From: Polynucleobacter sinensis | GTDB lineage: Bacteria; Pseudomonadota; Gammaproteobacteria; Burkholderiales; Burkholderiaceae | Length of the DNA: 64,000 nt | Reading direction: 5' to 3' | NCBI RefSeq assembly: GCF_001595985.1 | Contig: NZ_LOJJ01000001.1 | Location: forward strand, 124,001 to 188,000 | Notes under the pieces: generated by a model | The model's input: the letters and a program-made list of their open reading frames with translations, nothing else | Databases searched by the model: none | What the model was told of the DNA's origin: nothing | Part shown: piece by piece, positions 31,788 through 49,314 of the stretch | Layout: each line of letters begins with the position of its first letter | Position numbering within the stretch: the first letter of the stretch is position 1 | Position numbers and translations under genes: made by a program

Positions 31788-32438
31788 CTACCCCTTACGC
31801 CCCTCTCTTCTTTCTATTTCCCTTGCCATTTCTTGGCTACGGGAATTGTCCATATCTTTTCGCAAGCCATCAATAACCCCTTGCCTGTCTTTAGCAGGAC
31901 GATTCTGGCTAGCCTTCCATTTGGCTTCGATTTTTTCAACCAAAAGCTCCAATCCAACAATATTAGCAAGCATCGTTTTAATGTAGTCCTCTGGGGCATC
32001 TGAAACTGTCCATGGACTTTGTCTATCGCTCTCCATATCGTTGGTGAGGGCTTCAACTATTTGGCGCTTACTTTGCTCGTCATCAATAGCCCTGACTCTC
32101 CCATAAATATGAACACTCACATAGTTGTATGTAGGAACGACTTTATGGGTTTCTTGCTTTGAAGGGTATAGGGATGGGCTAATGTAAGTTTCATATCCAG
32201 AAAACACCAATAAAACTTTTTCATTGGACTCTCCAAGTCTCCAAACGGGATTTGCCTTGGCTGCATGTGAAATTAATTTACTGCCGACTTGTATTTTTTC
32301 ATCTAGCATCGAAAAAGGTAGGTGATTGCCAACAAGCTCGCCCTCGACATTCGCCACCATTAGTCCAAGTGGGTTTGCTCTAATAAATTCAGAAACTCTT
32401 TCTAAATCAGTTTCGGAAAAATGGGATGGGATATACAT
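31788..32438 (-). CDS. PaiB-like FMN-binding negative transcriptional regulator family
   Basis: From ATG 32438 (MYIPSHFSETDLERV) the 216-residue protein matches the PaiB family: NPLGLMVANVEGELVGNHLP, VPTYNYVSVHIYGRVRAI and a C-terminal KASQNRPAKDRQGVIDGL. Members bind FMN with a flavin-reductase-like split barrel and in Bacillus affect sporulation and protease genes; the mechanism is poorly known. It is the last ordinary gene before the tRNA-Phe-associated cassette array. Confidence 0.88.
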   Translation of the reverse strand: MYIPSHFSETDLERVSEFIRANPLGLMVANVEGELVGNHLPFSMLDEKIQVGSKLISHAAKANPVWRLGESNEKVLLVFSGYETYISPSLYPSKQETHKVVPTYNYVSVHIYGRVRAIDDEQSKRQIVEALTNDMESDRQSPWTVSDAPEDYIKTMLANIVGLELLVEKIEAKWKASQNRPAKDRQGVIDGLRKDMDNSRSQEMAREIERREGRKG

Positions 32439-32462
32439 TGAGTGATTAAAGCATTTTAAGGA

Positions 32463-32661
32463 TGAAAAAACCACCCGGAGGTGGCTTTTTCATTTTAGGC
32501 GCCCAGGAGCCAACAAGGAGCGGAACTGCAGGGCTAGTTGATCAATCCACATGCAATTCTGGAGCCAGAATTTCCGGCTGGCTGGGATTTATAGTCATCA
32601 GGATCTCGATGAACAATAGCGCATCCTCCCAATATTTCAGATAGCCCAGGACAGAGAATGG
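32463..32661. repeat. Array repeat R1: decayed tRNA-Phe terminator / 3'-end scar
   Basis: A hairpin (AAAAACCACC, CGGA, GGTGGCTTTTT at 32465-32491) matches the terminator of tRNA-Phe, then loosely similar acceptor- and T-arm-like sequence (GCGCCCAGGAGCC, GGAGCGGAACTG). A tail-like piece AGCCCAGGACAGAGAATGGC at about 32642-32661 abuts the cupin stop. This is the most decayed member of the R1-R5 series; it is recognised mainly through its neighbours. The hairpin probably also terminates transcription. Confidence 0.5.
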
Positions 32662-33108
32662 CTAATCATTTTCTTTAATCACCAAGGGAACTCCAACCTC
32701 TCCCACATAAAACATAATAATTTTTACGGGGATATCGCCTTGATTGATACCGTAATGCCATTTATTAACCAACTCAACAATTGAATCTCCAGAATTGAGA
32801 ATTAGCTGCTTTCCATCTTTGGCAATGACTGTTAGCCTTCCCTGCAACATCACTCCAGCATTGATGACTGGGTGCTTATGCATTGGCAATTTCATGCCCG
32901 ATGGTATTTCATAAGCAAGAATGCTGATTTCTGGATTTTTTAATGGGTAGGGAGGGAGCGGGCTGCCATCCCACTCCTTGGTGGCTTTAAGTATTTGGGT
33001 GACCTTTATATCACCTGAATTTTGATCCGTGCTCGTATCGCCATCTTTTGATTGGGCAAAAACAGATATTGAGAGCCCAACCAATACTATTGAAATTAAA
33101 TACTTCAT
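32662..33108 (-). CDS. Exported cupin-domain protein (cassette 1)
   Basis: ATG 33108 starts a signal peptide (YLISIVLVGLSISVFAQ); the mature part is a small cupin barrel with metal-ligand pattern KLPMHKHPVINAG and a later WHYGINQG. Function unknown. The gene is the sole content between repeats R1 and R2, its stop adjoining R1. Confidence 0.78.
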   Translation of the reverse strand: MKYLISIVLVGLSISVFAQSKDGDTSTDQNSGDIKVTQILKATKEWDGSPLPPYPLKNPEISILAYEIPSGMKLPMHKHPVINAGVMLQGRLTVIAKDGKQLILNSGDSIVELVNKWHYGINQGDIPVKIIMFYVGEVGVPLVIKEND

Positions 33109-33159
33109 CTTTGACTCCAATCGACTCCTGAATGAAAAGAGTCTAGCCCATATCGATCA

Positions 33160-33232
33160 AGCCACCCGAAGGTAATTTTGGTGTTTCTTAGCAGCCTCGG
33201 AGGTGGCTGACCAGAAAGGAGGATGCCCAACT
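33160..33232. repeat. Array repeat R2: tRNA-Phe 3'-end/terminator scar
   Basis: CCACCCGAAGGT, TTTTGGTGTTTCTT and GCC-CGGAGG-like sequence align with the terminator and acceptor stem of tRNA-Phe (37331-37390), followed by a tail (GACCAGAAAGGAGGATGCCC) shared with R4 and R5 but not with the tRNA. It directly follows the methyltransferase stop. Confidence 0.72.
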
Positions 33233-33847
33233 CTAATCCATCCTACAAAAGCAATAAAGAAATTGCTGAGTTGTGCCCATAGGTGTTTTATGGATTTCTG
33301 TAGAGCTATCAATCAGCTTGAAGCTTTTGCCAAATTGCCCATGGAGATTTTCAGAGTCATAACGAACTACATCTAGCCCACTACACTTCTCAGGGCCTTC
33401 GGGGCCAAAGGTGGACATAATTACATAACCACCATGCTTTACTGAGCGTATCACCTGCTCTATATATCTCTTTCGCTGAGCCTCTTCGGTTAAGAAATGA
33501 AATACAGCCCTGTCATGCCAAATATCAAAATAGTTTTGCGGTAATGTTGCTTGAGTAATATCAGCGCAATACCAATGTATCTTGTCTGCTAGATCACCGA
33601 TTCGCGCCCTAGCGACATCAATTGCTTTCTGAGAGATATCTAAAACGCTGATGTCTCTATAACCCTCAGCAATAAGGTCATCAACCAAAGTAGCCTCGCC
33701 ACCACCAATATCAATAATCGCGGCATCCCTATCGCTTGAGGCCTTATGGATAAGATTTAGTGATGTTTCAAGGTGTGGGGCATACCAACTGACTGCGTCA
33801 GGCGCTTTTGTGCCATAGACTCTTTCCCAATGCTCTTTGTTATCCAT
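33233..33847 (-). CDS. Class I SAM-dependent methyltransferase (cassette 2)
   Basis: A 204-residue Rossmann methyltransferase: N-terminal HWERVYGTKAPDAVSWYAPH, motif I AIIDIGGGEATLVDDL, motif II VLDISQKAID, and motif IV-like YCADITQATLP. Similar small enzymes act on small molecules such as thiols; the substrate is not evident. Its stop is at the edge of R2, and a divergent DUF3147 gene lies upstream. Confidence 0.85.
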   Translation of the reverse strand: MDNKEHWERVYGTKAPDAVSWYAPHLETSLNLIHKASSDRDAAIIDIGGGEATLVDDLIAEGYRDISVLDISQKAIDVARARIGDLADKIHWYCADITQATLPQNYFDIWHDRAVFHFLTEEAQRKRYIEQVIRSVKHGGYVIMSTFGPEGPEKCSGLDVVRYDSENLHGQFGKSFKLIDSSTEIHKTPMGTTQQFLYCFCRMD

Positions 33848-33952
33848 AATTACCTTTCACATAATTATTGAATCATTCTATGCCCTTTGGATTGATTTGT
33901 CGTTTTAAATGACATTCCTATAATGGGTTCATTAAAGACACTTGGGGCTTCT

Positions 33953-34303
33953 ATGGCTTGGATCATTACCAAATACCTACTAACAGCCGGAATGGTTGTA
34001 TTCATCTCAGAGGTAGCCAAAAGAAGCGATAGGTTGGGCGGCTTATTTGCGGCTCTGCCCCTAATGACTTTGCTCACGCTCACTTGGCTCTATATTGAGA
34101 ATCAACCGGAAGAGAAAATAGCTAATCACGCTTATTACACTTTTTGGTATGTGATTCCCACACTACCAATGTTTTTACTATTTCCCTACTTGCTTCCAAG
34201 ACTTGGGTTCTGGATGACGATGGGCGCAAGCTTAGCTGTAACAGTTATTTGCTTTGGCCTTTTTGCTCTATTAATGAAAAACTTTGGGGTCGAACTGCTG
34301 TAA
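33953..34303 (+). CDS. DUF3147 family membrane protein (cassette 2)
   Basis: A 116-residue protein starting MAWIITKYLLTAGMVVFI with four membrane helices and the DUF3147 stretch ISEVAKRSDRLGGLFAALPL. An ATG 30 nt upstream is possible. It is the plus-strand member of the cassette between R2 and R3; the stop is 1 bp before R3. Confidence 0.8.
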   Translation: MAWIITKYLLTAGMVVFISEVAKRSDRLGGLFAALPLMTLLTLTWLYIENQPEEKIANHAYYTFWYVIPTLPMFLLFPYLLPRLGFWMTMGASLAVTVICFGLFALLMKNFGVELL

Positions 34304-34304
34304 A

Positions 34305-34387
34305 TGAAAAACCAGCCGAAGGTGGTTCTGGTGCTTTTTGGTGGCCCGGGGCGGAATCTACCGGGACCAAGGACACTTAATCAATCT
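34305..34387. repeat. Array repeat R3: best-preserved tRNA-Phe 3'-end/terminator copy
   Basis: AAAAACCAGCCGAAGGTGGT, a short spacer, then TTGGTGGCCCGGGGCGGAAT (34339-34358) reproduce the tRNA-Phe terminator, CCA end, acceptor strand and T-arm almost exactly, with a few mismatches. Identity stops in the T-loop. The tail continues to the MFS stop codon. Confidence 0.88.
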
Positions 34388-35578
34388 CTAGACCTCTAAT
34401 CTTCTGAAAGCCTTTTTCAAGCCCAGTGTCAGCGGAAATACCAATAATACCGAGCCAGCAATGAGTGCAATGGCATTAGGAACGCCGAGCCTATCACCAG
34501 CAAAGCCATAAACAAGCGGCGAAATAGCTCCGGCACCTATCGTTAACGTATAAAACACGCCGAATGCTCTAGATCGGATATGTTGCGGAACCAACTCAGG
34601 GACTGTTCCATAAAGCCCAGATGATGTTCCATTTAGAGCAACGCCAACTAATGGCAACATCAACATAACAACATCAATGCTTAATGGTATGGTTAGTGCC
34701 ATCAAAATGGTTGTGGCAATTTCGGTTATTAAAGTGGTTTTAATGACGCCAAATCGAGCAGCGATAAACCCACAAACAAATTTGCCTGCGGCACCCCCAG
34801 CAAAAGTTAAGCTCAAAGCAAAGCCAATTTGAGTAACTGTGGCACCTTTAGAGATCAACAGAAAAGGTAGCAAGGTTAAAAAACCCATGCGAGTAGCGCT
34901 ATCAATCACAGCAATTGACGATAAAGAAATAAAGCCTAGATTAAGAAAATTTCTACCCGTGGCCTTGCCGCCCGTATCGACTGAAGCTTTATCTGGCTGG
35001 ACTTTAGAATGATTGGCAACTGTTGCTTTTGGTAGAACGACTGCCAAAAACATTACAACAAGCAATCCCAATAAACCCATTGCACTGGTTACGGCATGCC
35101 AATCCCAAACTGCTAACAAAGCCGCACAGAGAGATGGCAATAACACCTTGCCGATATCGCCAGAAAAGTTATATGTGCCCAGGGCGCCTCTTAATTGTGG
35201 GCCCTCAAAAGCATGGGCAGTTAACGAAGAGGAAAGGGGGTGCTGAACACTGGCGCCAATGCCGCTAAGAACTAAGCAGGCAGCTAAGCCTAAAAAGCCA
35301 GTAGTCCAGCCAGACAATAAAAATCCCATTGCCGCAATTAAAGTGCCGAATAGCAAAAGGCGTTTTTCACCAACCTTCTCTGACAACATACTTGATGGAA
35401 CCTGTAGAGAGGCCATGGCACCTGAATACAAAGTCTTTAAGAATCCTACTTCAGCAAGCGATAAGCCAAACGCCATTTGCCAAATAGGGAACATCACATA
35501 AAGCAGGTCGGTATATCCATCGTGAAGAATGTGGGCGCCACAACAAGCACTGAGAATTCTTTTTTTGAGGGCTTTCAT
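34388..35578 (-). CDS. MFS transporter, Fsr-like (cassette 3)
   Basis: From ATG 35578 the 396-residue protein has about twelve membrane helices, with GAHILHDGYTDLLYVMFPIW near the start and the MFS loop MLSEKVGEKRLLLFGTLIAA. The layout recalls fosmidomycin-resistance (Fsr) type exporters, but substrate cannot be named. It is the only gene between R3 and R4 and ends at R3. Confidence 0.87.
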   Translation of the reverse strand: MKALKKRILSACCGAHILHDGYTDLLYVMFPIWQMAFGLSLAEVGFLKTLYSGAMASLQVPSSMLSEKVGEKRLLLFGTLIAAMGFLLSGWTTGFLGLAACLVLSGIGASVQHPLSSSLTAHAFEGPQLRGALGTYNFSGDIGKVLLPSLCAALLAVWDWHAVTSAMGLLGLLVVMFLAVVLPKATVANHSKVQPDKASVDTGGKATGRNFLNLGFISLSSIAVIDSATRMGFLTLLPFLLISKGATVTQIGFALSLTFAGGAAGKFVCGFIAARFGVIKTTLITEIATTILMALTIPLSIDVVMLMLPLVGVALNGTSSGLYGTVPELVPQHIRSRAFGVFYTLTIGAGAISPLVYGFAGDRLGVPNAIALIAGSVLLVFPLTLGLKKAFRRLEV

Positions 35579-35604
35579 AGCAAGAATGTAACCTAGCCCA
35601 AATG

Positions 35605-35692
35605 AAAAAACCACCCGAAAGTGGTTTTGATGATTATTGGTGGTCCGTGGCGGAATCGACCAGAACTGAGGATGTCTGACTCCATATTGAAA
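35605..35692. repeat. Array repeat R4: tRNA-Phe 3'-end/terminator copy
   Basis: AAAAACCACCCGAAAGTGGT, then ATTGGTGGTCCGTGGCGGAA and TCGACC match terminator, CCA end, acceptor strand and T-arm, followed by the array tail (CAGAACTGAGGATGTCTGAC). The stop of the membrane-protein gene adjoins it. Confidence 0.86.
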
Positions 35693-36298
35693 CTACACAT
35701 CGCTATTTTTGTTTAATCTCTGGATTTGTCGCTGAAGCCACTGGCTATGTTGAATAAAATAAGTCAGCAGTCCAATTACTAACATGTTTCCGAAAAAACC
35801 ACCCATCACAATAATCATGCTTTCACGCATGAAATTATCAAAAGCATAGTTATGAATAGCAAAGATTACATAGGTATAACTAAACCCGTGAGCAATGCTG
35901 GCAAATAATGCCAATGTGACAACATCACGATACTTCAAATTATGGAGATCTTTCGCAACACCTAAGCCCTTTAGCGTTAAGTTCACAACCAGAACGAGAA
36001 CGACGCTACCAATAAGGGCCACGATGAACCACATAAACCAAGGTTGTTCTGGTTGAAATATTATTAATCTAATAAATACCGCAAGTCCAACCCCTATGGC
36101 AGCCATCCAACCAAAAATTAATACAGATAAAACTTTAATGCCAGCAGGCAAATAAACAAAATAGCTAAGTTCGGGATGGTTAACCAGGAAGGGAAAGGCC
36201 TTAACTATATAAAGTGTCAAAAAATATAGGCAAAAAGGTAGCCCTATCTTTTGGAGGATAATCAAGCTTGGTGGTATTTTTCTAGGCAAAATGGGCAC
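35693..36298 (-). CDS. Integral membrane protein of unknown function (cassette 4)
   Basis: A 201-residue protein with about five to six membrane helices (LPFCLYFLTLYIVKAFPFLV, VLSVLIFGWMAAIGVGLAVF, WFIVALIGSVVLVLVVNLTL among them). I do not recognise a family. It is divergent from a small winged-helix gene within the R4-R5 cassette. Confidence 0.72.
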   Translation of the reverse strand: MPILPRKIPPSLIILQKIGLPFCLYFLTLYIVKAFPFLVNHPELSYFVYLPAGIKVLSVLIFGWMAAIGVGLAVFIRLIIFQPEQPWFMWFIVALIGSVVLVLVVNLTLKGLGVAKDLHNLKYRDVVTLALFASIAHGFSYTYVIFAIHNYAFDNFMRESMIIVMGGFFGNMLVIGLLTYFIQHSQWLQRQIQRLNKNSDV

Positions 36299-36334
36299 AG
36301 ACTCATGATACTTAAAAAGAGGGGATAAATCTAA

Positions 36335-36670
36335 ATGACAAATTCTTACTTACGGTTTTTGCATCTCGCAGATGCGCTAACAAAATCATATGAAAAACCC
36401 CTGGACTCTTTGAGCATAGATATTCTTGAGCATATTCTCAAGAGCATGATTCTTAATCAAAACAAAATTGTAGTAGGCGATATTCTCTCACTCAGCAATT
36501 TAGGTTCTCCGGCCACGCTTCACAAAAGACTTCATGGCCTGATAGATGGTGGATATATCAAACTCAAGTCAACTGATGATGGTCGCGTTAAACAAATTGA
36601 ACTCACAAAGAAAGCAGATAAATATTTTGCCAACTTGAGTCAGGCCATTGAAAAGGCCTCAAGGGCTTAA
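36335..36670 (+). CDS. Small MarR-like winged-helix protein (cassette 4)
   Basis: A 111-residue protein with a winged-helix fold: helices around IDILEHILKSMILN, IVVGDILSLSNLGSPATLHK (recognition helix) and the wing DGRVKQIELT. It may regulate the divergent membrane-protein gene 36 bp away. Shorter than usual MarR proteins. Confidence 0.7.
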   Translation: MTNSYLRFLHLADALTKSYEKPLDSLSIDILEHILKSMILNQNKIVVGDILSLSNLGSPATLHKRLHGLIDGGYIKLKSTDDGRVKQIELTKKADKYFANLSQAIEKASRA

Positions 36671-36714
36671 TTAGATTTATCTTTTAAACCAATAGCCGTT
36701 AATAGCCCCAAATT

Positions 36715-36784
36715 AAAAACCACTCGAAGGTGGTTTTGATGTTTCTTGGTGATCCTGGGTGGAATCGACTAGGGCCGAGGATGC
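36715..36784. repeat. Array repeat R5: tRNA-Phe 3'-end/terminator copy
   Basis: AAAAACCACTCGAAGGTGGT and TTTCTTGGTGATCCTGGGTG, GGAATCGACTAGG align with the intact tRNA-Phe region; the tail (GGGCCGAGGATGCTTAGCC) matches those of R2 and R4. It ends at the GNAT stop codon. Confidence 0.86.
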
Positions 36785-37309
36785 TTAGCCAAGTTGTTTT
36801 GTTAACAACACCAGCTTAAGACCACTGATCTTAGGATTTCCAACGCCAGCATTTGCTGGATAGTCTGAGCTTACTTGCGTGGGCTCGTAGCCCCTACGTA
36901 AATAAAAATCGAATAGCTCCCTACGCTCTGAAATAACAAATAAATTAACCTCTGAAGACTCATATTGATTCTCGGCATACTCTTCTGCGAGCTGAAGCAT
37001 TTCTTTGCCCAAGCCAAGATTTTGATATGACGGCTTAACTGTCAGCATAGCGATATAGCTTGCTCCGGCTTCCTCATTAACATTTACGCAAGCCACAATC
37101 TCAGCCTTACTTAAGCCAAGCAATACTGTTGAGCCCTCCCTCTCAAGGAGCTCAGCAAGCTGTTGGGAGTTAATTCTTTCGCCCTCTATAAGTTCTGACT
37201 CATGAGTCCAGCCGGCTTCAGCGCCGTTAGGGCGATATGCTGTATTTATAAGACTAACAAGCTCTGAAACATCCTTGGCTGTAGCGATGCGATATTCGTC
37301 AATATTCAT
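36785..37309 (-). CDS. GNAT-family N-acetyltransferase (cassette 5)
   Basis: I start at ATG 37309 (MNIDEYRIATAKDVSELV), because a longer frame would run into the tRNA. The 174-residue protein has the acetyl-CoA-binding motif A (YIAMLTVKPSYQNLGLGKEM) and motif B-like LFVISERRELFDFYLRRGYE. Substrate unknown. It lies between R5 and the tRNA terminator, thus the cassette nearest the intact tRNA. Confidence 0.88.
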   Translation of the reverse strand: MNIDEYRIATAKDVSELVSLINTAYRPNGAEAGWTHESELIEGERINSQQLAELLEREGSTVLLGLSKAEIVACVNVNEEAGASYIAMLTVKPSYQNLGLGKEMLQLAEEYAENQYESSEVNLFVISERRELFDFYLRRGYEPTQVSSDYPANAGVGNPKISGLKLVLLTKQLG

Positions 37310-37332
37310 AACGATAGTTTCACACAGAGCAA

Positions 37333-37358
37333 TAAAAAACCACCCGAAGGTGGTTTTG
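37333..37358 (-). terminator. tRNA-Phe terminator
   Basis: AAAAACCACC, CGAA, GGTGGTTTT: stem with a GNRA-like loop and, on the minus strand, a T-run, directly 3' of tRNA-Phe. Copies of this element form the first part of repeats R1-R5. Confidence 0.9.
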
Positions 37359-37366
37359 GTGTTTCT

Positions 37367-37442
37367 TGGTGGCCCGGGGCGGAATCGAACCACCGACACA
37401 AGGATTTTCAATCCTCTGCTCTACCGACTGAGCTACCAGGCC
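37367..37442 (-). tRNA. tRNA-Phe (GAA)
   Basis: 76 nt with encoded CCA. Acceptor GGCCTGG pairs with CCGGGCC; the anticodon arm is GAGGA-TTGAAAA-TCCTT with anticodon GAA; the T-arm is GGTGGTTCGATTCCGCC. A TATAAT -10 box lies about 10 bp upstream on the minus strand (37452-37457). The 5' half is duplicated at 57355-57396 and 3'-half copies form R1-R5, so this gene is a recurrent integration target. Confidence 0.97.
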
Positions 37443-37466
37443 AAGACTTGGAATTATAAATGAAAC
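37405..37466. repeat. Island boundary repeat, left (att-like; tRNA-Phe 5' half plus promoter)
   Basis: 37405-37446 is identical over 42 bp to 57355-57396, and after three mismatches the next 17 bp (GGAATTATAAATGAAAC) are again identical. The repeat spans tRNA-Phe from its 5' end to the anticodon loop plus the -10 region. Identity ends exactly at the 3' side of the anticodon loop, a common crossover point of tyrosine integrases. Confidence 0.9.
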
Positions 37467-37595
37467 TGGGAATGGGCTTACTAAATGCGCCTACTGTGGC
37501 TAACTCTATTGATTTATAGGGAAATCCGGCTGGAGTGGGGATGTTTAATCCTACGGGACGGCGGCATTCAAATGAAACATAAGGTTGAAAGTAGG

Positions 37596-38294
37596 CTAAG
37601 CTTGCCAACCATTTGGGCTCATGAATCGATCAAGTGTAGAGAGATTTCTTTGGACATACACCAGCCTTTTTGACCAGGCTACGGACTTATTAAACTCTTG
37701 TACGACTTTTTTCTGAATATCAGCTTTCAGATTTATGAGGTCTTCCTTTATCAATACTGAATCAAACTCAAGCTCTTCAGAAAATTTAATACCTTTTTTA
37801 TTTGGGGAGGATTGAATCACAACTCTGTATTTTGACCCCGAAGAATCCTTATGCGCTGTACACCTTATTGAATATAAGAGGCCTTCTTCAATAAAAGCCG
37901 ATATGCCGCACCCAAAAATCTGATCAACACGATTAAACGCCGAAGTGATAACAACGCTTTTATGAATTTTAGATACACATTTGGTTAGATTGTCTTGAAA
38001 AACCTGAGGGGTCAAAGGGGTTGTAATGACATTCAATTCAGGCAATCCAGCCACAACTTTTCTCATTTTCCCAAAGTGAAATTGAAATTGAGAAAAATCT
38101 ATGCCCTCTGCCATTTCTGAGCCGAATACTCTAATGAAGTTTTTCTCACCAGTAGGATCATCTTGATAGTCGCACTGATCAACCTCATTTTTTGGAAGCT
38201 GCGTAAATTTAATGTCATGCGCCCATTGATTCTGAAGTGTGACCGTATCGCGTTCTGAAATAATTCGAAATTTGGTAAAGATTGGGCTTTCCAT
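37596..38294 (-). CDS. Hypothetical protein, island left end
   Basis: A 232-residue soluble protein with no signal peptide or familiar motif (starts MESPIFTKFRIISERDTV; beta-rich middle, helical C-terminus). It is the first gene inside the left boundary, transcribed toward it. Not recognised. Confidence 0.65.
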   Translation of the reverse strand: MESPIFTKFRIISERDTVTLQNQWAHDIKFTQLPKNEVDQCDYQDDPTGEKNFIRVFGSEMAEGIDFSQFQFHFGKMRKVVAGLPELNVITTPLTPQVFQDNLTKCVSKIHKSVVITSAFNRVDQIFGCGISAFIEEGLLYSIRCTAHKDSSGSKYRVVIQSSPNKKGIKFSEELEFDSVLIKEDLINLKADIQKKVVQEFNKSVAWSKRLVYVQRNLSTLDRFMSPNGWQA

Positions 38295-38326
38295 GGGTCA
38301 CCAAGTATTAATTTCTTACTAAGTTA

Positions 38327-38503
38327 TCACACGGCTTGGTTGTTGCTGACTTTTTTAAGCAGGCTCTGCCCAGCCTTAATCTTCTGCCTAGCCCGCTCAG
38401 CCTTTATAGCCGCCTGATCACGCTTAACGCGATCTTTCATAGATTTAAGCCTTGCTTGTTCGGGACTTAATGGTTTTTGCGGGGCTATTTCATCGAATCT
38501 CAT
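38327..38503 (-). CDS. Small charged coiled-coil protein (58 residues)
   Basis: ATG 38503-38501 to TGA 38329-38327. The product (MRFDEIAPQKPLSPEQARLK and on) is very rich in Lys, Arg, Ala and Gln, one long predicted helix. It follows the 48-residue gene by 2 bp on the same strand. I recall similar short basic proteins in plasmid-like elements; function unknown. Confidence 0.58.
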   Translation of the reverse strand: MRFDEIAPQKPLSPEQARLKSMKDRVKRDQAAIKAERARQKIKAGQSLLKKVSNNQAV

Positions 38504-38505
38504 AA

Positions 38506-38652
38506 TTACCCAATCTGTGACGGTTGATGTGGAACATTACTGTTGCCGAAGATAGCTTGAAACAACTTGTATGCCTGAGCTTGATTTTGGGCATACAGAA
38601 TGGTTTCTACCCACAAGCCCGCCGCATTGACTGTTGCCTTATATCTTTTCAT
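38506..38652 (-). CDS. Small hypothetical protein (48 residues)
   Basis: ATG 38652-38650 to TAA 38508-38506: begins MKRYKATVNAAGLWVETILY, then AQNQAQAYKLFQAIFGNSNV. The pattern (short strand, then a helix) resembles small mobile-element proteins, and its stop lies 2 bp before the next small gene's start. Likely an operon of two small proteins. Low-level evidence only. Confidence 0.55.
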   Translation of the reverse strand: MKRYKATVNAAGLWVETILYAQNQAQAYKLFQAIFGNSNVPHQPSQIG

Positions 38653-38744
38653 AAAGATATTTAGCTTTTCTTAACTAGCCCACCAATTAAATATAAGCGT
38701 CTTGTTATTGGACACTTCTTAATAGCTGAAATAAATCTAGATTT

Positions 38745-39128
38745 TTAACTTTTCCATTTAGTAATTAAAGTGAATTGAGGATTGCCCACTTCTTGTAAGG
38801 CTTTCTTTGCAAAGTCTTCTGGGGTTGCATATATCTTTGATTCTTCGAGTAAAGCCGAATAAAGCACAGGCTTCAAAACGACTAAGGCGGCATTGAAATC
38901 AATAACTCGCTCTATAAATGGAGAGGCCCAGTCTTCAATATTTCCATAATCAAACCCAGCAGAACTGAGAGAATCCCAGGCTAGAGATTCAAAGGCCGAA
39001 ATTGATGGCAGGTTTTCGGGGGAGCACTTTTTTATCTTATCTATTGCATTTTGAAACTGCTCTAACCATCGGGCTTTTAAAGAAACGGCGCAGTGGCAAA
39101 ATGTGATCACATCAAGGGAATTAGTCAT
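38745..39128 (-). CDS. Hypothetical protein
   Basis: A 127-residue, mostly helical soluble protein (MTNSLDVITFCHCAVSLKAR at the start). No motif recognised. Between small island genes on the same strand. Confidence 0.6.
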   Translation of the reverse strand: MTNSLDVITFCHCAVSLKARWLEQFQNAIDKIKKCSPENLPSISAFESLAWDSLSSAGFDYGNIEDWASPFIERVIDFNAALVVLKPVLYSALLEESKIYATPEDFAKKALQEVGNPQFTLITKWKS

Positions 39129-39293
39129 AGCTCTCCTTATTGATTATTTGCCAATAATAATCTCAATATTCTAATAAGCAGCAAGCATACGAATTCGATG
39201 AAGGGCTGAGCAATATCTTCAATCTTCATAGCCTTTAACAGCTAGCGACAGAATAGATATCCTAAAGTGGGGGCGTTGTGCCCCCACAATAAA

Positions 39294-39734
39294 CTAACGC
39301 TTAAACCCGCTACGCAAACTACTACTTGCAGTTTCTATCTGAGCGTCTAATTCCCCGGCCTCAACAGCCGACTTAATAGACTCTAGTGCCTTTACTAGCT
39401 CTAGACCGCTTGCCACTTCTACGCTAGGCTTGCCCTTAGCAAGCTCAATAGTCCAAGAGCCATATTTAACTGAAACACAGACTTTGCCTTGTTCTGATTG
39501 GAACCACCAGGGTTTTAAACGCTTGGGTATTTCTACCTGCTTACGCAACCCAGTCTCTTTATCTTTAACAGTTTTGAACTTTGTCACAACAAAGGGTGTG
39601 CCATCCATTTGACTCTTAGCTAGCTGGATTTGTTCCCACAGCTTGCTAGAAAGCTTATTTCTACGAATGACGATTGCAGGCATATGGGTTGGTTTTTTAA
39701 CTGCTACTAGTTTTAAGTTACTTAATGCGCTCAT
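39294..39734 (-). CDS. DUF6641-like protein
   Basis: The 146-residue protein (MSALSNLKLVAVKKPTHMPA, then VIRRNKLSSKLWEQIQLAKS, KDKETGLRKQVEIPKR and a C-terminal AGELDAQIETASSSL) fits my memory of DUF6641, a family of unknown function found in plasmids and islands of beta- and gammaproteobacteria. Its start overlaps the end of a CPKCG-containing frame at 39718. Confidence 0.72.
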   Translation of the reverse strand: MSALSNLKLVAVKKPTHMPAIVIRRNKLSSKLWEQIQLAKSQMDGTPFVVTKFKTVKDKETGLRKQVEIPKRLKPWWFQSEQGKVCVSVKYGSWTIELAKGKPSVEVASGLELVKALESIKSAVEAGELDAQIETASSSLRSGFKR

Positions 39735-39882
39735 TGTTTTCTCCTATGTTGTTAATGGGCACAAGTAGTTTGTTTTCGATCTGTTTATTTGGTCGACCTC
39801 TTTTTACCAACCCATTTCTTTTGCCGCATTTTGGACAGGAAATTAGCGGTTTTTCTTTAAGAGGGATAAATATTTTTGCGAG
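39718..39882 (-). pseudogene. CPKCG zinc-finger-like reading frame without a start
   Basis: Read on the minus strand, a frame ending at TAA 39720-39718 encodes LISCPKCGKRNGLVKRGRPN and a short tail. No ATG, GTG or TTG occurs between the upstream in-frame TAG and the CPKCG motif, so it is a remnant, uses a non-canonical start, or is chance. The CxxC and the basic RGRP segment suggest a DNA-binding ancestor. Confidence 0.35.
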
Positions 39883-40119
39883 TTGCTTGGTTACAAAGTA
39901 GAAGTCGCAAAAAGAAAAAGAAGTCGCAAGGTTGAGTTTGAGTGGTTGCTAGCAAGTTACTCGTAGTGGCAAATGAGTAGCCCTGACTAAGCAACATAAC
40001 TTCGTAACTCCTCTTTTGAGATCTGCGACCTTTACTGCAACTGATCTCTTCTGATCTCTCTTGTAACCAACAAAGTAACTAGCAACGAGAACTCAATTTA
40101 GAACACAAGGAGAATAAAA
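39883..40119. other. Repeat-rich non-coding region of the island
   Basis: No gene is visible. The stretch repeats GAAGTCGCAA at 39901 and 39921, and holds several GTTAC/GTAAC words, including a near inverted pair GTTGCTAGCAAGTTAC (39945-39960) and GTAACTAGCAAC (about 40075-40086). Candidates are a replication or recombination control region, or the promoter of the 40120 gene (ribosome site AAGGAG just before its ATG). Confidence 0.5.
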
Positions 40120-40575
40120 ATGAGAGAAATTGCAATCAGAGGTTTTATCAACGAGAAGTACAATACTCCATTTGGCAAAGGATTATTTAGACGAGCAATC
40201 TATAACGGATCTGTCGAGCTGCTAAACCCCAACCAAAAGTATCTAGTCGATTTTTATGAATTCGGGACATTTCAACACACAGCTAAATCAAATAGTCAGA
40301 TAGAAATATTGAATAAATTAATCGCGTGTGGTGTAGCCAATACACCTGATCTAGTGATGTCGTGGATTGTGCATTACGAGCCTTTAACCAAATCAAAAGA
40401 ACTAGTTGATGGTTATTGCATCTATTTACAAACAACAGGCGAAGTCCATATTGAAATTGATGATGTTCAAAATGGAACAAAAGATGAGTGGGACTTAAAA
40501 GCCCATCACTGCAAATCTGTAGGCGCAAATAAGCCAGTATTTGTAGCAACAAATGTGGACTTAAACGCTAAGTAG
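40120..40575 (+). CDS. Hypothetical protein
   Basis: A 151-residue soluble protein starting MREIAIRGFINEKYNTPFGK with a good ribosome site. Mixed alpha/beta, no known motif. It precedes a long hairpin at 40595. Function unknown. Confidence 0.65.
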   Translation: MREIAIRGFINEKYNTPFGKGLFRRAIYNGSVELLNPNQKYLVDFYEFGTFQHTAKSNSQIEILNKLIACGVANTPDLVMSWIVHYEPLTKSKELVDGYCIYLQTTGEVHIEIDDVQNGTKDEWDLKAHHCKSVGANKPVFVATNVDLNAK

Positions 40576-40594
40576 TAATAAAGCAAAACCCCTC

Positions 40595-40677
40595 AAAAAA
40601 GCCCTACAAGCAAAGATCTTCAAACATCACAGCGTCTAGTTGCTGAACGCCAAACAAATAGCGTGTAGGGCTTTTTT
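40595..40677. terminator. Long bidirectional hairpin enclosing an island palindrome
   Basis: AAAAAAGCCCTACA (40595-40608) and TGTAGGGCTTTTTT (40664-40677) form a perfect 14-bp stem with A- and T-runs. The 55-nt loop carries AGCGTCTAGTTGCTGAACGC (40631-40650), a variant of the palindrome repeated through the island. It may be a terminator into which a recombination site was inserted. Confidence 0.7.
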
Positions 40678-40883
40678 GACCCCAAAACTCAATTTGTCGT
40701 CTATTTCCTACGAAATACTCATAAATATTAATAACGCAAACCACATAAGAAAAACACACTTTTCTTATGTGGAAGCGTAAGCCATTGATTTTTGGAAGAT
40801 CTTGTCTTGGTAAATTTCGGTCGACCATTTTGCAATAAGAAAACACACTAATAGTGCTTTTTTATTTATGAAAGGTTTTACAA

Positions 40884-41450
40884 ATGGCTCAAGCAAAAAC
40901 CCTTACCCAAGCAGAACTGGATCAAGTGCTGCGTTATGTATCCACCAAAAAATATCCCGAGCGCGATAGAGCATTGCTCATGACAAGTTTTCTTGCAGGA
41001 CTTCGTGTTGCGGAGATTGCATCCTTAACAATGGGCGATGTTTTAAATACAGATGGCACAGTCAAGGCAGAAGTTCGATTATCAGCCGAACAAACCAAAG
41101 GAAAGTATCCGAGGACAGTTTTCTTATCCACTAAATTACGTGCCGAACTGGAAGAATATTTAAAAACCCGTCACGCCAAATATCCCGACATTCCACTGTT
41201 TCACACTAATACACGCCTAAGATTTACTGCTAATTCATTGTGTCAGTGGTTCTATCACACCTATCGTAACGCTGGTATTAGTGGTGCCAGCAGCCATAGT
41301 GGAAGAAGGAACTTTTTAACCTCGCTTGCCTCAAAGGGAGTTGGTGTTCGCGTACTTGCAGCATTAGCAGGACATCGCAATATCGCAGTAACAATGAAAT
41401 ACATAGATGCATCCGATGATATGAAACGCAATGCCGTGGAATTAATTTAG
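40884..41450 (+). CDS. Catalytic-domain-only tyrosine recombinase
   Basis: A 188-residue recombinase with Arg in AGLRVAEIASL, Lys in EQTKGKYPRTV, HSGRRN (HxxR), AGHRNIAV and nucleophile Tyr in TMKYIDAS, so all catalytic residues are present. The N-terminal core-binding domain (about 100 residues in XerC) is absent: it starts almost at the catalytic domain. Such enzymes occur on plasmids and islands as resolvase-like recombinases. It could act on the island palindromes, but that is inference. Confidence 0.9.
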   Translation: MAQAKTLTQAELDQVLRYVSTKKYPERDRALLMTSFLAGLRVAEIASLTMGDVLNTDGTVKAEVRLSAEQTKGKYPRTVFLSTKLRAELEEYLKTRHAKYPDIPLFHTNTRLRFTANSLCQWFYHTYRNAGISGASSHSGRRNFLTSLASKGVGVRVLAALAGHRNIAVTMKYIDASDDMKRNAVELI

Positions 41451-41466
41451 CAAACGCCTAAGAATT

Positions 41467-41509
41467 AAATGACTGCATTTTCTTAATCGCAAAAATACAG
41501 TCATTTTTT
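41467..41509 (+). terminator. Hairpin after the small recombinase
   Basis: AAATGACTG (41467-41475) pairs with CAGTCATTT (41498-41506), followed by Ts. The loop contains AATCGCAAAAATA, which recurs at 41608-41620 in the same intergenic region. Confidence 0.6.
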
Positions 41510-41695
41510 ACAAAACTAAAATCGCATGCAAAGCCTTTATTTATAAGGCTCAAATTTTTCGTATTTTTCTGTCAAGGAAATAAAACAACGCCGTGATTTG
41601 TTCGAAAAATCGCAAAAATATACAGTGACTCCATCAACAAAGCAAACCGACAATTTCGTCACTAACGCTAAGTTGATTTTTAAGGAGTTTTAAAA

Positions 41696-42736
41696 ATGGA
41701 AAATGCAATTGAAGTAACTAACCAAGCAGCAAACCCATCAGCAGCACAATCAACCACTCCTTCTGTGGATATTCGCAATATGAATGCCAATGTCATCACT
41801 GAGGATTCATCGACTTTTGATGAAGTATTTGAGGTGGAAGGTGAAGTCAAACCCTCATCAAAACCTGTAGCACTATCTGAGCCCAAAGAATCGGACAAAG
41901 ATAAAGCGCAGCGTACGCAGGCAAGCTTGGATAAAGCTAAAGTAGCAAAATCTGCCAGCACCAGTCTTGTTCAGTACGAGCGCAAGCTTAGCGTAGAGGC
42001 CGCTACAGCAGACACAACAGCCATCATCCCAAAAGAGCGCAAGGCGTATGTAGCTGCGTTTAAAGCCGGAGTGGAGAAAACTGCTCGTAGCACTTTAGAG
42101 ATGTGCCGCGTGGTTTATGAGGCAGAGCAATCGCTAGATAAGTTTCAATTTAAGACTTTTTGCGAAGAAGTCGGACTTAAGGACTACAGCAGTACTGTTC
42201 GCAAGTTCTCTGCAATTGGTCGGGTATATCCACGCTTTATTCAATATGTGGATCAACTGCCAGCAAGTTGGACCAATATCTACTTGATTACTCAAATTCC
42301 AGCAGATGCATTTGAGGAATGCCTGACAAAAGGGTATGCGTTAAATAAGCTAACAGGCGCAAAGCTTGATGAGCTGGTCAAAAGCACAAAGGACATCAAT
42401 AAGATTGAAGAGCCCTTAAGCTTTGATAGCAAAAACTCTGGCTATGTATTTGCCAAGCTCTTGTTTACCAAAAAGCCCGATGACACTGATTGGCGCGCGA
42501 TGGAAAAGGCGTTAGCTGAAATCTCTGCCCGCTTACCAATCAAGTTTGTTATCAACAAAGAAGCTGGAGAGTTTGTGCAAGCTCGTCGTGAACAACGCTA
42601 TGAGCAAATCAAACAAAGCAGCAAAAATGTCGATCTCAAGCCTGATTTATGGGATTTGGGTGCGGAAGCAAATGCTGTTTATAAAGTCGCGGAACGTGTA
42701 GCCAACCCGACTGACAAGGCAGTTATTACTGTTTAA
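41696..42736 (+). CDS. Hypothetical helical protein, island core
   Basis: A 346-residue soluble protein with an acidic, disordered N-terminus (first about 90 residues rich in Ser, Thr, Glu, Ala), a helical core (KFQFKTFCEEVGLKDYSSTV, ASWTNIYLITQIP) and a C-terminal helix. It resembles plasmid and phage partition or regulatory proteins in build but lacks a clear ParB box or HTH. AAGGAG lies just before ATG 41696. It could be the island regulator. Confidence 0.65.
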   Translation: MENAIEVTNQAANPSAAQSTTPSVDIRNMNANVITEDSSTFDEVFEVEGEVKPSSKPVALSEPKESDKDKAQRTQASLDKAKVAKSASTSLVQYERKLSVEAATADTTAIIPKERKAYVAAFKAGVEKTARSTLEMCRVVYEAEQSLDKFQFKTFCEEVGLKDYSSTVRKFSAIGRVYPRFIQYVDQLPASWTNIYLITQIPADAFEECLTKGYALNKLTGAKLDELVKSTKDINKIEEPLSFDSKNSGYVFAKLLFTKKPDDTDWRAMEKALAEISARLPIKFVINKEAGEFVQARREQRYEQIKQSSKNVDLKPDLWDLGAEANAVYKVAERVANPTDKAVITV

Positions 42737-42737
42737 G

Positions 42738-42769
42738 ACAACCGCTACCACTGCAGGGGTAGCGGTTGT
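42738..42769. terminator. Hairpin after the 41696 gene
   Basis: ACAACCGCTACC pairs with GGTAGCGGTTGT in a 12-bp stem. No long T-run follows, so efficiency as a terminator is uncertain. Confidence 0.6.
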
Positions 42770-42783
42770 TCCAAATAGAACAA
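42766..42783. promoter_or_regulatory. TTGTTC-N6-GAACAA palindrome upstream of the 42815 gene
   Basis: TTGTTCCAAATAGAACAA has perfect 6-bp arms and lies 31 bp before ATG 42815. The same palindrome is found in the island repeat units at 49991, 52394, 53334 (two mismatches) and 56200, suggesting one binding protein. Confidence 0.6.
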
Positions 42784-42814
42784 ATTCCTCAATTCAATTA
42801 AGAAAGAAATTCAA

Positions 42815-43129
42815 ATGAAAAAACTATCTACAACCATGATTCCACACACATCCACTAAAGCCCAAGTAAGTAAGCTACAACATGTGCAAGATGTCTTTGC
42901 CATTGAGGTTATAAATGCCATGTATCGTGGCGCCAAATTTAGCGGTGTATTAGAGCTAGTAAATGGCACAGACAGTATTCGTAAGTACAAAGACTCTTAT
43001 CGCGCTAACGCTAAATTGGCATGGTTTGGCACAGAGCTTAAAAAACGTAATCCCTTTATCAATCTTGATAACGCAGAAGTAACGCTATTGCCTTGCTACA
43101 CAGGCGATGTAGTTGCCTGCTTGGGCTAA
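42815..43129 (+). CDS. Hypothetical protein beside the integrase
   Basis: A 104-residue soluble protein (MKKLSTTMIPHTSTKAQVSK at the start; no motif known). Its 3' end overlaps the integrase gene by 4 bp on the opposite strand. The palindrome at 42766 suggests regulated expression. Confidence 0.6.
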   Translation: MKKLSTTMIPHTSTKAQVSKLQHVQDVFAIEVINAMYRGAKFSGVLELVNGTDSIRKYKDSYRANAKLAWFGTELKKRNPFINLDNAEVTLLPCYTGDVVACLG

Positions 43130-44340
43130 GCCAACTTCTCAGCATTCATCATAGGAGTTAGTTTCGAATAATGACGCTCAATCATGCCAACACTAGTGCC
43201 CATTTGCCTAGCGAGAGTATGGATATCAACCCCTCTTGCTAAGGCGAATGTGGCATAGGTATGACGCAGGCTATACAAGGTTCTATTCTGACCAGAGCCA
43301 TCCACACGCATATTGCTACGAACCATCAAGTTACGAAAGATATTTTCCATATTGCTAATTTGTTCCCCTGTTGGCAATCGAAATATCACCGCATCAACCT
43401 TAGCCTCAATCACAGCATTCAATCCTGAGTAAGGCAACTTCTGCCACTTCATTACTCGTTCCAATACCTTCACCACAGCCGTTCTTGCTATCAAATATCT
43501 AGGGCCCGTCTTGCCTGACACCCAAATCCTCAAGTATTTCTTCCCCCCAATCCAATGCCATTGCAAATGTTTCCACCTAAGCGGCAGGGCTTCTGTTCCA
43601 TGACGAACACCAGTATTGACTAAAAACTCTATGTAATAAGCACACAGCGTTCTCATTAACGCCGTTCTATCTGTATAAGAGCTCTTTTGCCAAGTCTCTG
43701 TATAACTTAGTAAGTCCTTAATTTCTTCTGCTGTAAAAGCAGGGCGGGGCTGGCTCTTTTTGCCTTTGCTATCTAATAACGGCACGGCTTGATTTAATCC
43801 AATATAACCACGATCACGGGCTAGATTAATTACTCTTATATAAGCACTGGCATGATTACGCTTAGTGCTTGCCATAGGGGTCTTACCCATCTCACTAATA
43901 CGCCAAGATTCAAAGTCGCCCAATAGTTCATTGGTAATTTGACTAATCTCATATTGCCCAAAGAAGGGAATAAGGTATTTGTTAATGGCAAAGGCGTAGT
44001 CACGATAAATGCGCTTTCCTAGTTTGTTATGCAGAGCTTGCGCCATATTTGCCAGCTCATCTAAAGCGATTTGCTTAAAGGTCTTAGTGACAACAGCTAA
44101 GCCAGCACCAACTTTGACTTTGACGGTTTCGTAAATGGCTATCGCTTGGGTTTGAGCTAAGTCAGAGTCTTCTGTATTTGTAGAGGCCGCATGCCATTGC
44201 CCATTGGGTAGCTTAAAACGGCATTGCCACTTGTTACTTTTGGCGCGCCGAAACAGAGTTAATTCACCACGCAACAAGGAGATTGTTTTGGGTGATACTT
44301 GGTTTGTATTGGCAGGAAAGAGGTATTGAAAGTTTTGCAA
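43126..44340 (-). CDS. Tyrosine integrase of the tRNA-Phe island
   Basis: A 404-residue integrase with an N-terminal arm-type domain (about 1-80), a core-binding domain and a C-terminal catalytic domain: Arg in VNTGVRHGTEALPL, Lys in GKTGPRYLIA, the LYSLRHTYATFA box and nucleophile Tyr in IERHYSKLTP. In the HxxR box the first His is Tyr, and the second His region reads QMGTSVGMI; both variants recur in a large integrase subfamily. It is the best candidate for inserting the island at the tRNA-Phe anticodon loop. An island palindrome lies 5 bp upstream of its start. Confidence 0.93.
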   Translation of the reverse strand: MQNFQYLFPANTNQVSPKTISLLRGELTLFRRAKSNKWQCRFKLPNGQWHAASTNTEDSDLAQTQAIAIYETVKVKVGAGLAVVTKTFKQIALDELANMAQALHNKLGKRIYRDYAFAINKYLIPFFGQYEISQITNELLGDFESWRISEMGKTPMASTKRNHASAYIRVINLARDRGYIGLNQAVPLLDSKGKKSQPRPAFTAEEIKDLLSYTETWQKSSYTDRTALMRTLCAYYIEFLVNTGVRHGTEALPLRWKHLQWHWIGGKKYLRIWVSGKTGPRYLIARTAVVKVLERVMKWQKLPYSGLNAVIEAKVDAVIFRLPTGEQISNMENIFRNLMVRSNMRVDGSGQNRTLYSLRHTYATFALARGVDIHTLARQMGTSVGMIERHYSKLTPMMNAEKLA

Positions 44341-44344
44341 GTTC

Positions 44345-44366
44345 GGCGTCTAGTTACTGGACGCTT
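44345..44366. repeat. Island palindrome (GCGTC-N9-GACGC) upstream of the integrase
   Basis: GGCGTCTAGTTACTGGACGCTT, preceded by GTTC. Orientation is opposite to the copies at 49961, 52365, 53305 and 56171. It could be an operator or a recombination site. Confidence 0.75.
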
Positions 44367-44499
44367 GCTAGCTTAAATTCAGATTAGGATTTGGGCGACC
44401 TGAAGATGCCCGTCAAACCCCACAATAATTTGAATGAATCGTGTAAATTAGTCATAAATGCTTAATCTCACCACCTATTTAGTTATTCGCGTAAGCCTA

Positions 44500-44898
44500 A
44501 TGGATAAGTTAAATCCAATTGAAGAGATTAATAAGGTATTAAATAAAAATCCTTACTGTTGGTTCGGCAAATACGGAGAACCACTAAAGTCAATTTTGCA
44601 TACCGATCTTAGTGAAAAAAATTATGTGCTATGTCTCGTTTACAGGAATGGCGCCAAATATGAAATGAATTCATATAAAGTCCTCGAAATTTCTGGTGCC
44701 CCCAAGCTTACCAAGAGCAATCATCCACTTTATTACAAATCTTTTATTGGTCGCATCAAATCCTTTGTAAAAATAACCTCCCTTATAGGTCCGCAGCCCG
44801 CCCTCGAAGATCTTTACTTAAAGAAGAGTCTCAATAGCATCCTGAAAGCACTTCAGAAATCCGTTAGGGGCCATTTCATTTGCGCATCTAAAAAATAG
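44500..44898 (+). CDS. Hypothetical protein upstream of the putative nuclease
   Basis: A 132-residue soluble protein from ATG 44500 (MDKLNPIEEINKVLNKNPYC); ATG 44458 would add 14 residues. Beta-rich centre, helical C-terminus. Not recognised. It is 42 bp upstream of the 377-residue candidate restriction enzyme on the same strand, so it might belong to that system. Confidence 0.6.
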   Translation: MDKLNPIEEINKVLNKNPYCWFGKYGEPLKSILHTDLSEKNYVLCLVYRNGAKYEMNSYKVLEISGAPKLTKSNHPLYYKSFIGRIKSFVKITSLIGPQPALEDLYLKKSLNSILKALQKSVRGHFICASKK

Positions 44899-44940
44899 TA
44901 AGGGCCCTGCTATGATCTTCACTTAAACAAGTGAGGAAAC

Positions 44941-47504: not shown

Positions 47505-47677
47505 TGTTTCATTGTAGTGTTCTAAGAAATTTTCTACGACCTTTCAATGGGCCAGCATTTCACATAAACCTTGCCACTCAAAATTTAGCCGGGTAATTAT
47601 TAACTTATCTTATAGCTCATTCTATGAGCCTATGAGCCTCTAAACTCGATTTATACATTCAAACCAAGAGATTAGCC

Positions 47678-47992: not shown

Positions 47993-47996
47993 TCTC

Positions 47997-49275: not shown

Positions 49276-49314
49276 ATGCCCTGTGACTAAGTACTGATGT
49301 TTTCTTCGATAGTC

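Follow-up and report, generated by a model that had tools for sequence, protein, structure and literature searches.

The 64-kb window (the whole stretch of DNA that was analysed) contains a tRNA-Phe-anchored array, which we regard, with a probability of about 0.55, as a row of non-autonomous, integron-like cassettes moved by a recombinase acting in trans. The Polynucleobacter tRNA-Phe gene seems to be a docking site at which genes are traded one by one among species. In the window, the head of the array and its docking site is tRNA-Phe (GAA) at positions 37367–37442 of the minus strand (ARAGORN; Rfam E 1.1e-13), with a terminator of family D2 on its 3′ side (37331–37357, minus strand), which is of the same type as the terminators of the repeats. 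An ARAGORN scan found this tRNA intact in the window and in seven further array loci.

Five units and five repeats, all assigned to the minus strand, follow the tRNA, and the unit boundaries were observed. Unit 1 (36769–37391, bounds computed from joint offsets) carries a GNAT acetyltransferase gene (36785–37309; Pfam) and has a whole-unit homologue in locus L034 (87.8% over 698 bp). Repeat R5 (36711–36795) is made up of a tail, the tRNA-Phe sequence from the T-loop to CCA, and a terminator. Unit 2 (35660–36768) holds ORFs 35693–36298 (minus) and 36335–36670 (plus), both without a Pfam match, and is followed by the composite repeat R4 (35602–35688). Unit 3 (34361–35659) encodes an MFS transporter (Pfam) and has a whole-unit homologue in L071 (83%); R3 (34303–34388), again a composite with a tail, comes next. 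Unit 4 (33211–34360) contains a methyltransferase gene (33233–33847, minus; Pfam), a plus-strand ORF (33923–34303) and, at 33898–33914, a near-palindrome of the TGTCGTTTAAAACGACA type with no strand assigned; it is followed by R2 (33153–33240), a composite repeat whose core is degenerate. Unit 5 (32500–33210, the far bound at R1 being approximate) encodes a cupin protein (32662–33105; Pfam). Three ORFs of the array region had no Pfam match at E 0.001.

The genus repeat profile, built from 144 seeds among which the window's own repeats may be included, matched R5, R4, R3 and R2 with E-values of 4e-19, 2e-19, 2e-18 and 3e-8, respectively. Free of this seed bias, each of R1–R5 outscored all 400 of 400 random non-array stretches of the window when aligned to the 3′ half of the tRNA plus terminator. 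R1 (32462–32510, minus strand) comprises a terminator hairpin and a weak acceptor remnant; its profile match (E 0.007, the runner-up place in the window reaching 0.07) is restricted to the terminator part, a separate alignment gave 74% over 47 nt (E 0.006), and it is certain solely as a hairpin (22 of 24 bases). R1 is probably a decayed old site, and the FMN-binding domain gene beyond it (31788–32435, minus strand; Pfam) is possibly an older unit.

The first-pass annotation had described all five repeats as composites of terminator, CCA, acceptor and T-arm, which holds for R2–R5 (profile E 3e-8 to 2e-19) and, in the case of R1, for the hairpin only; the refuting conditions named there, a similarity limited to the hairpin or the lack of a clean joint, likewise apply to R1 and to none of R2–R5. 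The non-tRNA tail noted in R2, R4 and R5 was recovered, but R3, which was not listed there, carries it as well. Nor does every repeat lie at the stop of a single minus-strand gene, since R3 sits between the stops of the plus-strand gene 33923–34303 and the MFS gene, and the unit between R5 and R4 contains two divergent genes. The assignments of the cupin, methyltransferase, MFS and GNAT genes were confirmed by Pfam, and that of the FMN-binding gene likewise.

The survey of the genus covered 61 tRNA-Phe loci, namely those of 60 hand-picked Polynucleobacter genomes and the window, with one genome per species in the sets compared. Units were present at 51 of these loci (268 units in total) and ten loci had none. 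The median unit length was 1.04 kb, with 236 of the 268 shorter than 3 kb and 19 of at least 4 kb. All 348 profile matches (tRNA-Phe included) were on the strand of the tRNA, which also carried the longest ORF in 148 of 185 units below 1.6 kb; in units of this size the median distance from the gene stop to the joint was 28 nt. Outside the array of the window, the 112 kb of strand searched gave no match to the tail motif at a threshold of at least 14 bits, and palindromes occurred at 0.40 per kb inside the units versus one in 104 kb upstream. A common left end was shared by 43 of the 268 units and, in one genome, also follows directly on tRNA-Ser plus a terminator. A search of L190 and L232 for a displaced end of tRNA-Ser was negative.

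Among 173 classified joints, 151 were of the T-loop type, 21 of the anticodon type and one lay between. Identity was profiled in homologous units at least 92% identical with different neighbours, sites without a CCA anchor being dropped, and joint positions could be observed directly. At the left joint, the median identity of tail, core and terminator was 0.56, 0.89 and 0.82 in cassette–cassette pairs (n = 33) and 0.53, 0.93 and 0.93 in tRNA–cassette pairs (n = 24), whereas at the right joint (n = 64) it was 0.83, 0.93 and 0.62, falling to 0.48 beyond; these pairs are non-independent, many of them coming from one family. As judged from such alignments, the joints of the units fall within the T-loop/acceptor core. 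In the empty-site alignment of L052 with L068/L070 the presence or absence of the unit is directly visible, and the right joint is without a second core.

The movement of single units is apparent from their distribution between genomes. The 132 units that could be grouped form 42 families, each present in at least two genomes, and the ordinal position differs in 35 of these 42. A flanking unit was common to just 4 of 218 cross-genome homologous pairs; therefore, units move singly. Near-identical units were observed across species: for a 1330-bp unit with 99.5–99.8% identity among four genomes, the downstream neighbour is a different one in each of the four and the upstream neighbour is of three kinds (the tRNA in two genomes), with the cut at the T-loop, while a 576-bp unit, compared over 446 bp, shows 100% identity among three species, its flanks on both sides aligning at just 49–55%. 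Differences by one unit (A-X-B versus A-B) were observed in four family cases, and in certain families the bodies are alike only from an internal palindrome onward. As regards a possible entry of new units at the tRNA-proximal end, comparable to insertion at attI, site quality declines the farther a site lies from the tRNA (rho −0.26, negative in 30 of 34 loci), but the best foreign homologues show no such trend in their identity (rho −0.09, p 0.30).

The most serious rival explanation, a live though less probable one, is that RecA-dependent homologous recombination after DNA uptake shuffles the cassettes, with the copies of tRNA, core and terminator (some 60–110 bp) serving as short homologies, so that a special recombinase is unneeded today. 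Core and terminator are indeed identical across nearly 60 bp in many units, some array-bearing genomes have no dedicated resident recombinase, internal exchange distinguishes some homologous units, and an r/m of 7.4 is given for P. asymbioticus in the excerpt of PMC5644125. Crossovers in the terminator should then be common, yet near-identical units keep their own terminators: at an identity of at least 95%, 21 of 27 pairs agreed in the unit's own terminator type and 4 of 26 in that of the next unit. This test is clear at that level of identity only, the left and right terminators being the same in 62 of 114 and 45 of 110 pairs, respectively, at 85–95% identity, and in 35 of 76 and 37 of 71 below 85%; the 74 of 268 units that were unclassified in terminator typing were counted as a separate type. 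Homologous recombination is further opposed by the movement of single units rather than blocks and by the lack of homology upstream of the tRNA in six of seven pairs compared, and it leaves unexplained the conserved tail and the left end joined to tRNA-Ser.

According to the cassette reading, each unit would consist of a tRNA 3′ part (T-loop to CCA) with terminator, one or more genes, and the conserved tail. A circular intermediate, which we infer, would bear a single composite site in which the tail abuts T-loop, acceptor, CCA and terminator. Recombination of this site with the T-loop of tRNA-Phe, or with a resident copy, would insert the cassette and provide the tRNA with a new 3′ end and terminator, while the old tRNA 3′ end would be displaced downstream, where it would close the new cassette. 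The enzyme would be site-specific, probably a tyrosine recombinase provided in trans by other mobile elements, and the integrase-bearing elements at the same tRNA-Phe might conceivably be a candidate source of it. Other genomes lend good support to the first-pass proposal that single genes were inserted repeatedly at one tRNA, a tRNA 3′ half being left each time, namely by the presence or absence of single units between common neighbours, by the switch inside the T-loop/acceptor core and by the identical unit in three species; the first-pass remark that the array has no recombinase is true of the window and of 264 of the 268 units. The more general view, that Polynucleobacter has a tRNA-based, integron-like capture platform, in which any gene with a composite site may become a mobile cassette, the recombinases being those of visiting elements, the tRNA an entry port and the terminator an insulator, is put forward tentatively, with somewhat less than even confidence.

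In the seven genomes checked, the only recombinases common to all were XerC/XerD-like, and a dedicated resident recombinase for the array was not found; the two-unit genome G036 has only two tyrosine recombinases, one XerC-like and one XerD-like. With a tyrosine recombinase profile of 33 sequences picked by eye, such enzymes were found inside 4 of the 268 units, at four of the 61 loci. These four units measure 6.8–16 kb, encode a recombinase of 418–424 aa or a fragment, and all end in an anticodon-type joint; three of them also encode a recombinase of 188–232 aa, one has the common left end and two have palindromes near both ends. For the T-loop joint, the units and genomes checked yielded no recombinase. 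The 188-aa recombinase was rejected as the mover: 79 of 151 genomes have it, but the array-bearing G004, G024, G036 and G038 have no match to it at E ≤ 1e-25. A serine recombinase, present in only one of seven genomes, was rejected too. Free cassette circles were sought by way of terminal overlaps of 15–200 bp, which all ten of the whole small contigs lacked; such an overlap is present in one contig from the genome of the window itself.

It is improbable that the units are worn remnants of full integrative islands accreted in tandem, with integrase and other genes lost, although the recombinase-bearing units at the same tRNA, one of them with the common left end, are in line with such an origin. 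Identical short units recur whole across many genomes, those shared by different species at 99.5–100% identity are small already and have no integrase, and their joint class differs from that of the integrase-bearing units; the recent transfer of intact 0.6–1.3 kb units weakens this explanation as well. A relic of a true integron, with attC cassettes and IntI, is very improbable. The units are mostly short and on the same strand, with a recombination site just past the gene, as an integron would have them, but integron membership is refuted by the absence of the integron integrase (TIGR02249) above its curated cut-off from all 151 genomes, and by a GGCCC/GGGCC dyad without covariation (one pair changed on both sides versus 2.0 in shuffles). 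Folding of the attC-like single strand was likewise rejected (91.1% paired, covariation no more than in shuffles; consensus DNA fold z −1.3). That the repeats are terminator-like hairpins alone, unrelated to tRNA, is valid for R1 and otherwise hardly credible, as R2–R5 and 100 aligned sites from other genomes extend from tail through acceptor to CCA.

A kinship with tycheposons, suggested in the first-pass annotation, found no support, most units being far below 4 kb and without a recombinase. The excerpt of PMC10872708 describes tycheposons as cargo transposons of 4–200 kb that are bordered by a tRNA and have a tyrosine recombinase; tRNA border and tRNA-linked cargo are shared with that description, while the median length and the scarcity of tyrosine recombinases given above depart from it. 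An integron cassette array minus its integrase is the functionally closer parallel. CALINs, as portrayed in the excerpt of PMC11389934, resemble the array in that small units stand in a row, each gene being followed by a recombination site, that an integrase is not resident, and that genomes share units in different order. Unlike them, the Polynucleobacter array is headed by a tRNA gene and not by attI, its site derives from tRNA-Phe and terminator and not from attC, and it has neither an integron integrase above the cut-off nor a covarying hairpin. Cassettes which target a tRNA gene, the insert ending in a repeat of part of that tRNA, have been reported for the additive flexible islands of Alteromonas, Actinomarinales and Methylopumilus (excerpts of PMC4119200, PMC7771536 and PMC10872708), the last of these sources mentioning 20-nt repeats of tRNA-Lys that recur, and islands of 330 bp upward. 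Variable occupancy of a conserved tRNA (10 of 61 loci empty here) and a direct repeat of a tRNA fragment at the insert end are common features; the composite site with its conserved non-tRNA tail, the travelling terminator and the genus-wide single-unit shuffling counted here set Polynucleobacter apart from those islands, as far as the excerpted descriptions go. Four of the 61 loci contain, as bounded units at this tRNA-Phe, islands that integrate into tRNA genes by a tyrosine integrase; these differ from typical units in their recombinases and anticodon-type joint. The composite site and the shuffling of single units look like a novel form of the small tRNA-linked cassettes already known elsewhere. 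If true, the cassette reading would mean that a tRNA attachment site, with no integrase in residence, can give rise to the capture of one-gene cassettes, which is seen as a speciality of integrons; the reading would also provide a countable interspecies route for metabolic and stress genes in abundant freshwater bacteria. The joints, units and donor–recipient pairs found make the mechanism testable in culturable strains.

As for the distribution outside the genus, exact site patterns had no match in viral contigs, and the 93-nt consensus had none in plasmids or phages. In a survey of Burkholderiaceae, 46 of 299 genomes gave a match; among the matches listed, those reaching the tail were all in Polynucleobacter, and six genomes of other genera matched from the tRNA-like part on only. 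A pattern with 22 fixed bases matched 61 stretches in the genome contig collection, 37 of which are titled Polynucleobacter and 21 stem from beta-proteobacterium, Burkholderiales or Burkholderiaceae MAGs; one stretch each is titled Thermoflexus, Rhodobacteraceae and Alcaligenaceae MAG, and these three are taken for putative misbinned contigs.

Along the strand of tRNA-Phe (37367-37442, minus strand), the window array consists of tRNA-Phe, a terminator and one or more genes, followed, again and again, by a tail, the tRNA-Phe sequence from T-loop to CCA, a terminator and further gene(s). Of the five tRNA-Phe-derived repeats claimed by the first-pass annotation, four are supported by matches to the genus repeat profile (R5, E 4e-19; R4, 2e-19; R3, 2e-18; R2, 3e-8), whereas R1 was matched in the hairpin only (E 0.007). 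The contents of the units were assigned by Pfam. Whole-unit homologues were found for unit 1, the GNAT unit next to the tRNA (87.8% identity in locus L034, where the copy sits behind an anticodon-type joint), and for the MFS unit 3 (83% in L071).

Of 151 genomes of the genus, 150 contain the tRNA-Phe stretch. For 60 of them, a non-random set hand-picked because the match was good and the contig long, some 20 kb of surrounding sequence was taken, which together with the window makes 61 loci. BLAST revealed 236 partial copies 3' of tRNA-Phe in 51 of these, and the profile, at E 0.01 and with the tRNA itself counted, gave 348 matches, all of them on the tRNA strand. When matches starting at model position 45 or later were removed and a unit was defined as the interval between consecutive sites, 268 units were obtained in 51 loci (1 to 13 per locus), with a median length of 1040 bp (quartiles 670 and 1841); 236 are shorter than 3 kb and 19 measure at least 4 kb. 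According to mechanical ORF calls in units below 1.6 kb, the longest ORF is co-directional with the tRNA in 148 of the 185 units having one, and its stop lies a median of 28 nt ahead of the joint. Under the above definition of a unit, 10 of the 61 loci lack units. In one of them, L063, the DNA upstream of the tRNA is 94% identical to that of L034, which carries five units. In L052 the tRNA terminator is followed directly by a gene that other loci have at a greater distance downstream, and this gene could be an old cassette itself. For the cargo, 98 of 155 cluster representatives were scanned, giving 110 Pfam families, and among the 25 families listed the commonest, GNAT, occurs in only three members, the others including transporters, carbonic anhydrases, Cu/Zn superoxide dismutase, cupin and FMN-binding protein.

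The consensus of 100 aligned T-loop-type sites, chosen by score and excluding anticodon-type sites, reads TAGGATNAGNCATCCTCGGCCCTGG | TCGATTCCGCCCCGGGCCACCAAGAA plus terminator; the tail, left of the bar, is unlike tRNA-Phe, and the part to the right is tRNA-Phe. At least two terminator types alternate at the sites, and covariation is absent from the GGCCC/GGGCC dyad. Since the likeness to tRNA-Phe extends to the T-stem only in 151 of 173 classified sites and back to the anticodon in 21 (one lies in between), two crossover classes can be distinguished: the T-loop joint is used by cassettes and the anticodon arm by larger islands.

Comparison of the sequences indicates that units move singly. 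Nearly half of them (132 of 268) fall into 42 families, each occurring in at least two genomes; position varies in 35 families, and a flanking unit is shared in only 4 of 218 cross-genome homologous pairs. When homologous units with different neighbours are aligned, the sequences to the left of the core and those past the terminator are no more alike than random DNA. In pairs at least 95% identical, the unit's own terminator type is kept in 21 of 27 cases and the following type is the same in 4 of 26, a contrast that weakens below 95%. The presence or absence of single cassettes among Polynucleobacter tRNA-Phe loci, on which the earlier proposal of single-gene insertion could be checked, was observed in four family cases in total. 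Families F7 and F0 are adjacent in one genome and separated by F8 in another, the 1330-bp F7 unit having exact joints and 99.5-99.8% identity in four genomes; F9 and F1 are likewise separated by F4, with unit bodies only 78-81% identical. Three genomes carry the F5 unit with 100% identity over the compared 446 bp, one of them differing by a single base in the tRNA/terminator stretch, while neither the DNA upstream of tRNA-Phe nor that beyond the unit is related among them (49-55% in global alignments).

Homologous recombination via the repeats would yield much of the observed pattern too, and PMC5644125 reports strong recombination in P. asymbioticus. Site quality falls with distance from the tRNA (rho -0.26; negative in 30 of 34 loci), which fits insertion beside the tRNA, but the best foreign homologues are not more or less identical the further a unit lies from it. 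Site-specific recombination is preferred, mainly because a shared left end points to an element family using more than one tRNA. The palindromes TGTCGTTTAAAACGACA and TGTCCTTTAAAAGGACA have 173 matches in 433 kb of units (88 of 268 units), one in 104 kb upstream of the tRNA and none in the 56 kb of the window outside the array. In an alignment of nine, both palindromes, with a tail-like motif between them, form a 76-bp left end. Of the 268 units, 43 have it, usually some 100 bp past the joint; it occurs in 59 of the 151 genomes, and a good number of the places listed are near tRNA-Phe. At L190:8985-9230 (G106), such a left end, with terminator and two palindromes 46 bp apart, lies directly behind tRNA-Ser(TGA), which hints at a single family of elements not confined to one tRNA; a displaced tRNA-Ser copy was not found in 11 kb downstream.

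Four of the 268 units contain tyrosine recombinases, and each of these units ends in an anticodon-type joint. Since the left end is found in just one of them (L034), and palindromes near both ends in L034 and L074, these integrase-bearing elements are only candidates for a helper role. Seven genomes examined carry 2 to 4 tyrosine recombinases each, and a serine resolvase was found in one. Only two tyrosine recombinases, presumably XerC and XerD, are common to all seven (each 88-96% identical to its G036 counterpart), and G036 has no others. Apart from Xer, then, no fixed resident can be the enzyme, if there is one. The window's own genome gives 19 tyrosine recombinase family matches. A short tyrosine recombinase (about 188 aa), with little beyond the catalytic domain, is found in 79 of 151 genomes, in up to six copies per genome.

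PMC4119200, PMC7771536 and PMC10872708 describe cassettes that are located at tRNA genes and have repeats of tRNA fragments, so the general kind is known. A literature search of partial coverage returned no account of such arrays in Polynucleobacter, and we file them as a variant, apparently new, form of tRNA-linked additive islands. On this reading, the array works like that of an integron, but without the integrase.

Several related structures were also observed. The 5' end of tRNA-Phe, with 3 upstream bases, recurs as a perfect 41-nt copy 20 kb upstream (57355-57395, minus strand), which has a promoter-like stretch similar to that of tRNA-Phe. Between the two 5' ends lies an island (37443-57354) encoding two tyrosine recombinases (40884-41450, 43126-44340); it apparently inserted at the anticodon loop and gave tRNA-Phe a new 5' half and promoter. 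In the same genome, the 7052-bp contig G000:C16 (L185) has a perfect 130-bp terminal overlap, as expected of either a 6922-bp circle or a head-to-tail repeat. It carries one anticodon-type tRNA-Phe site, palindromes and genes for dehalogenase-like, FlK-type thioesterase, AraC, AAA and esterase proteins; no replication, transfer or recombinase family was detected among 7 ORFs scanned, and 66 bp match contig C4 at 98%. In other genomes, tRNA-Phe-type cassettes preceded by a tRNA-Phe fragment starting GCTAGAGCAGAGG occur elsewhere in the chromosome, at L224:6430-7740 (G145) and near tmRNA in L203 (G072). Rows of tRNA-Phe-type sites distant from tRNA-Phe lie at L188:15316-19689 (G061, with no such sites at its tRNA-Phe) and L228:9591-13577 (G098), and a 73-nt tRNA-Phe-like gene, also distant from the main one, precedes a cassette site at L225:10327-10399 (G082). 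Finally, of 7 genome pairs compared (L031, L034, L042, L043, L058-L060, L071, L081), 6 have unrelated DNA upstream of the tRNA-Phe promoter, and the 5' side of tRNA-Phe may therefore be an exchange hot spot too.
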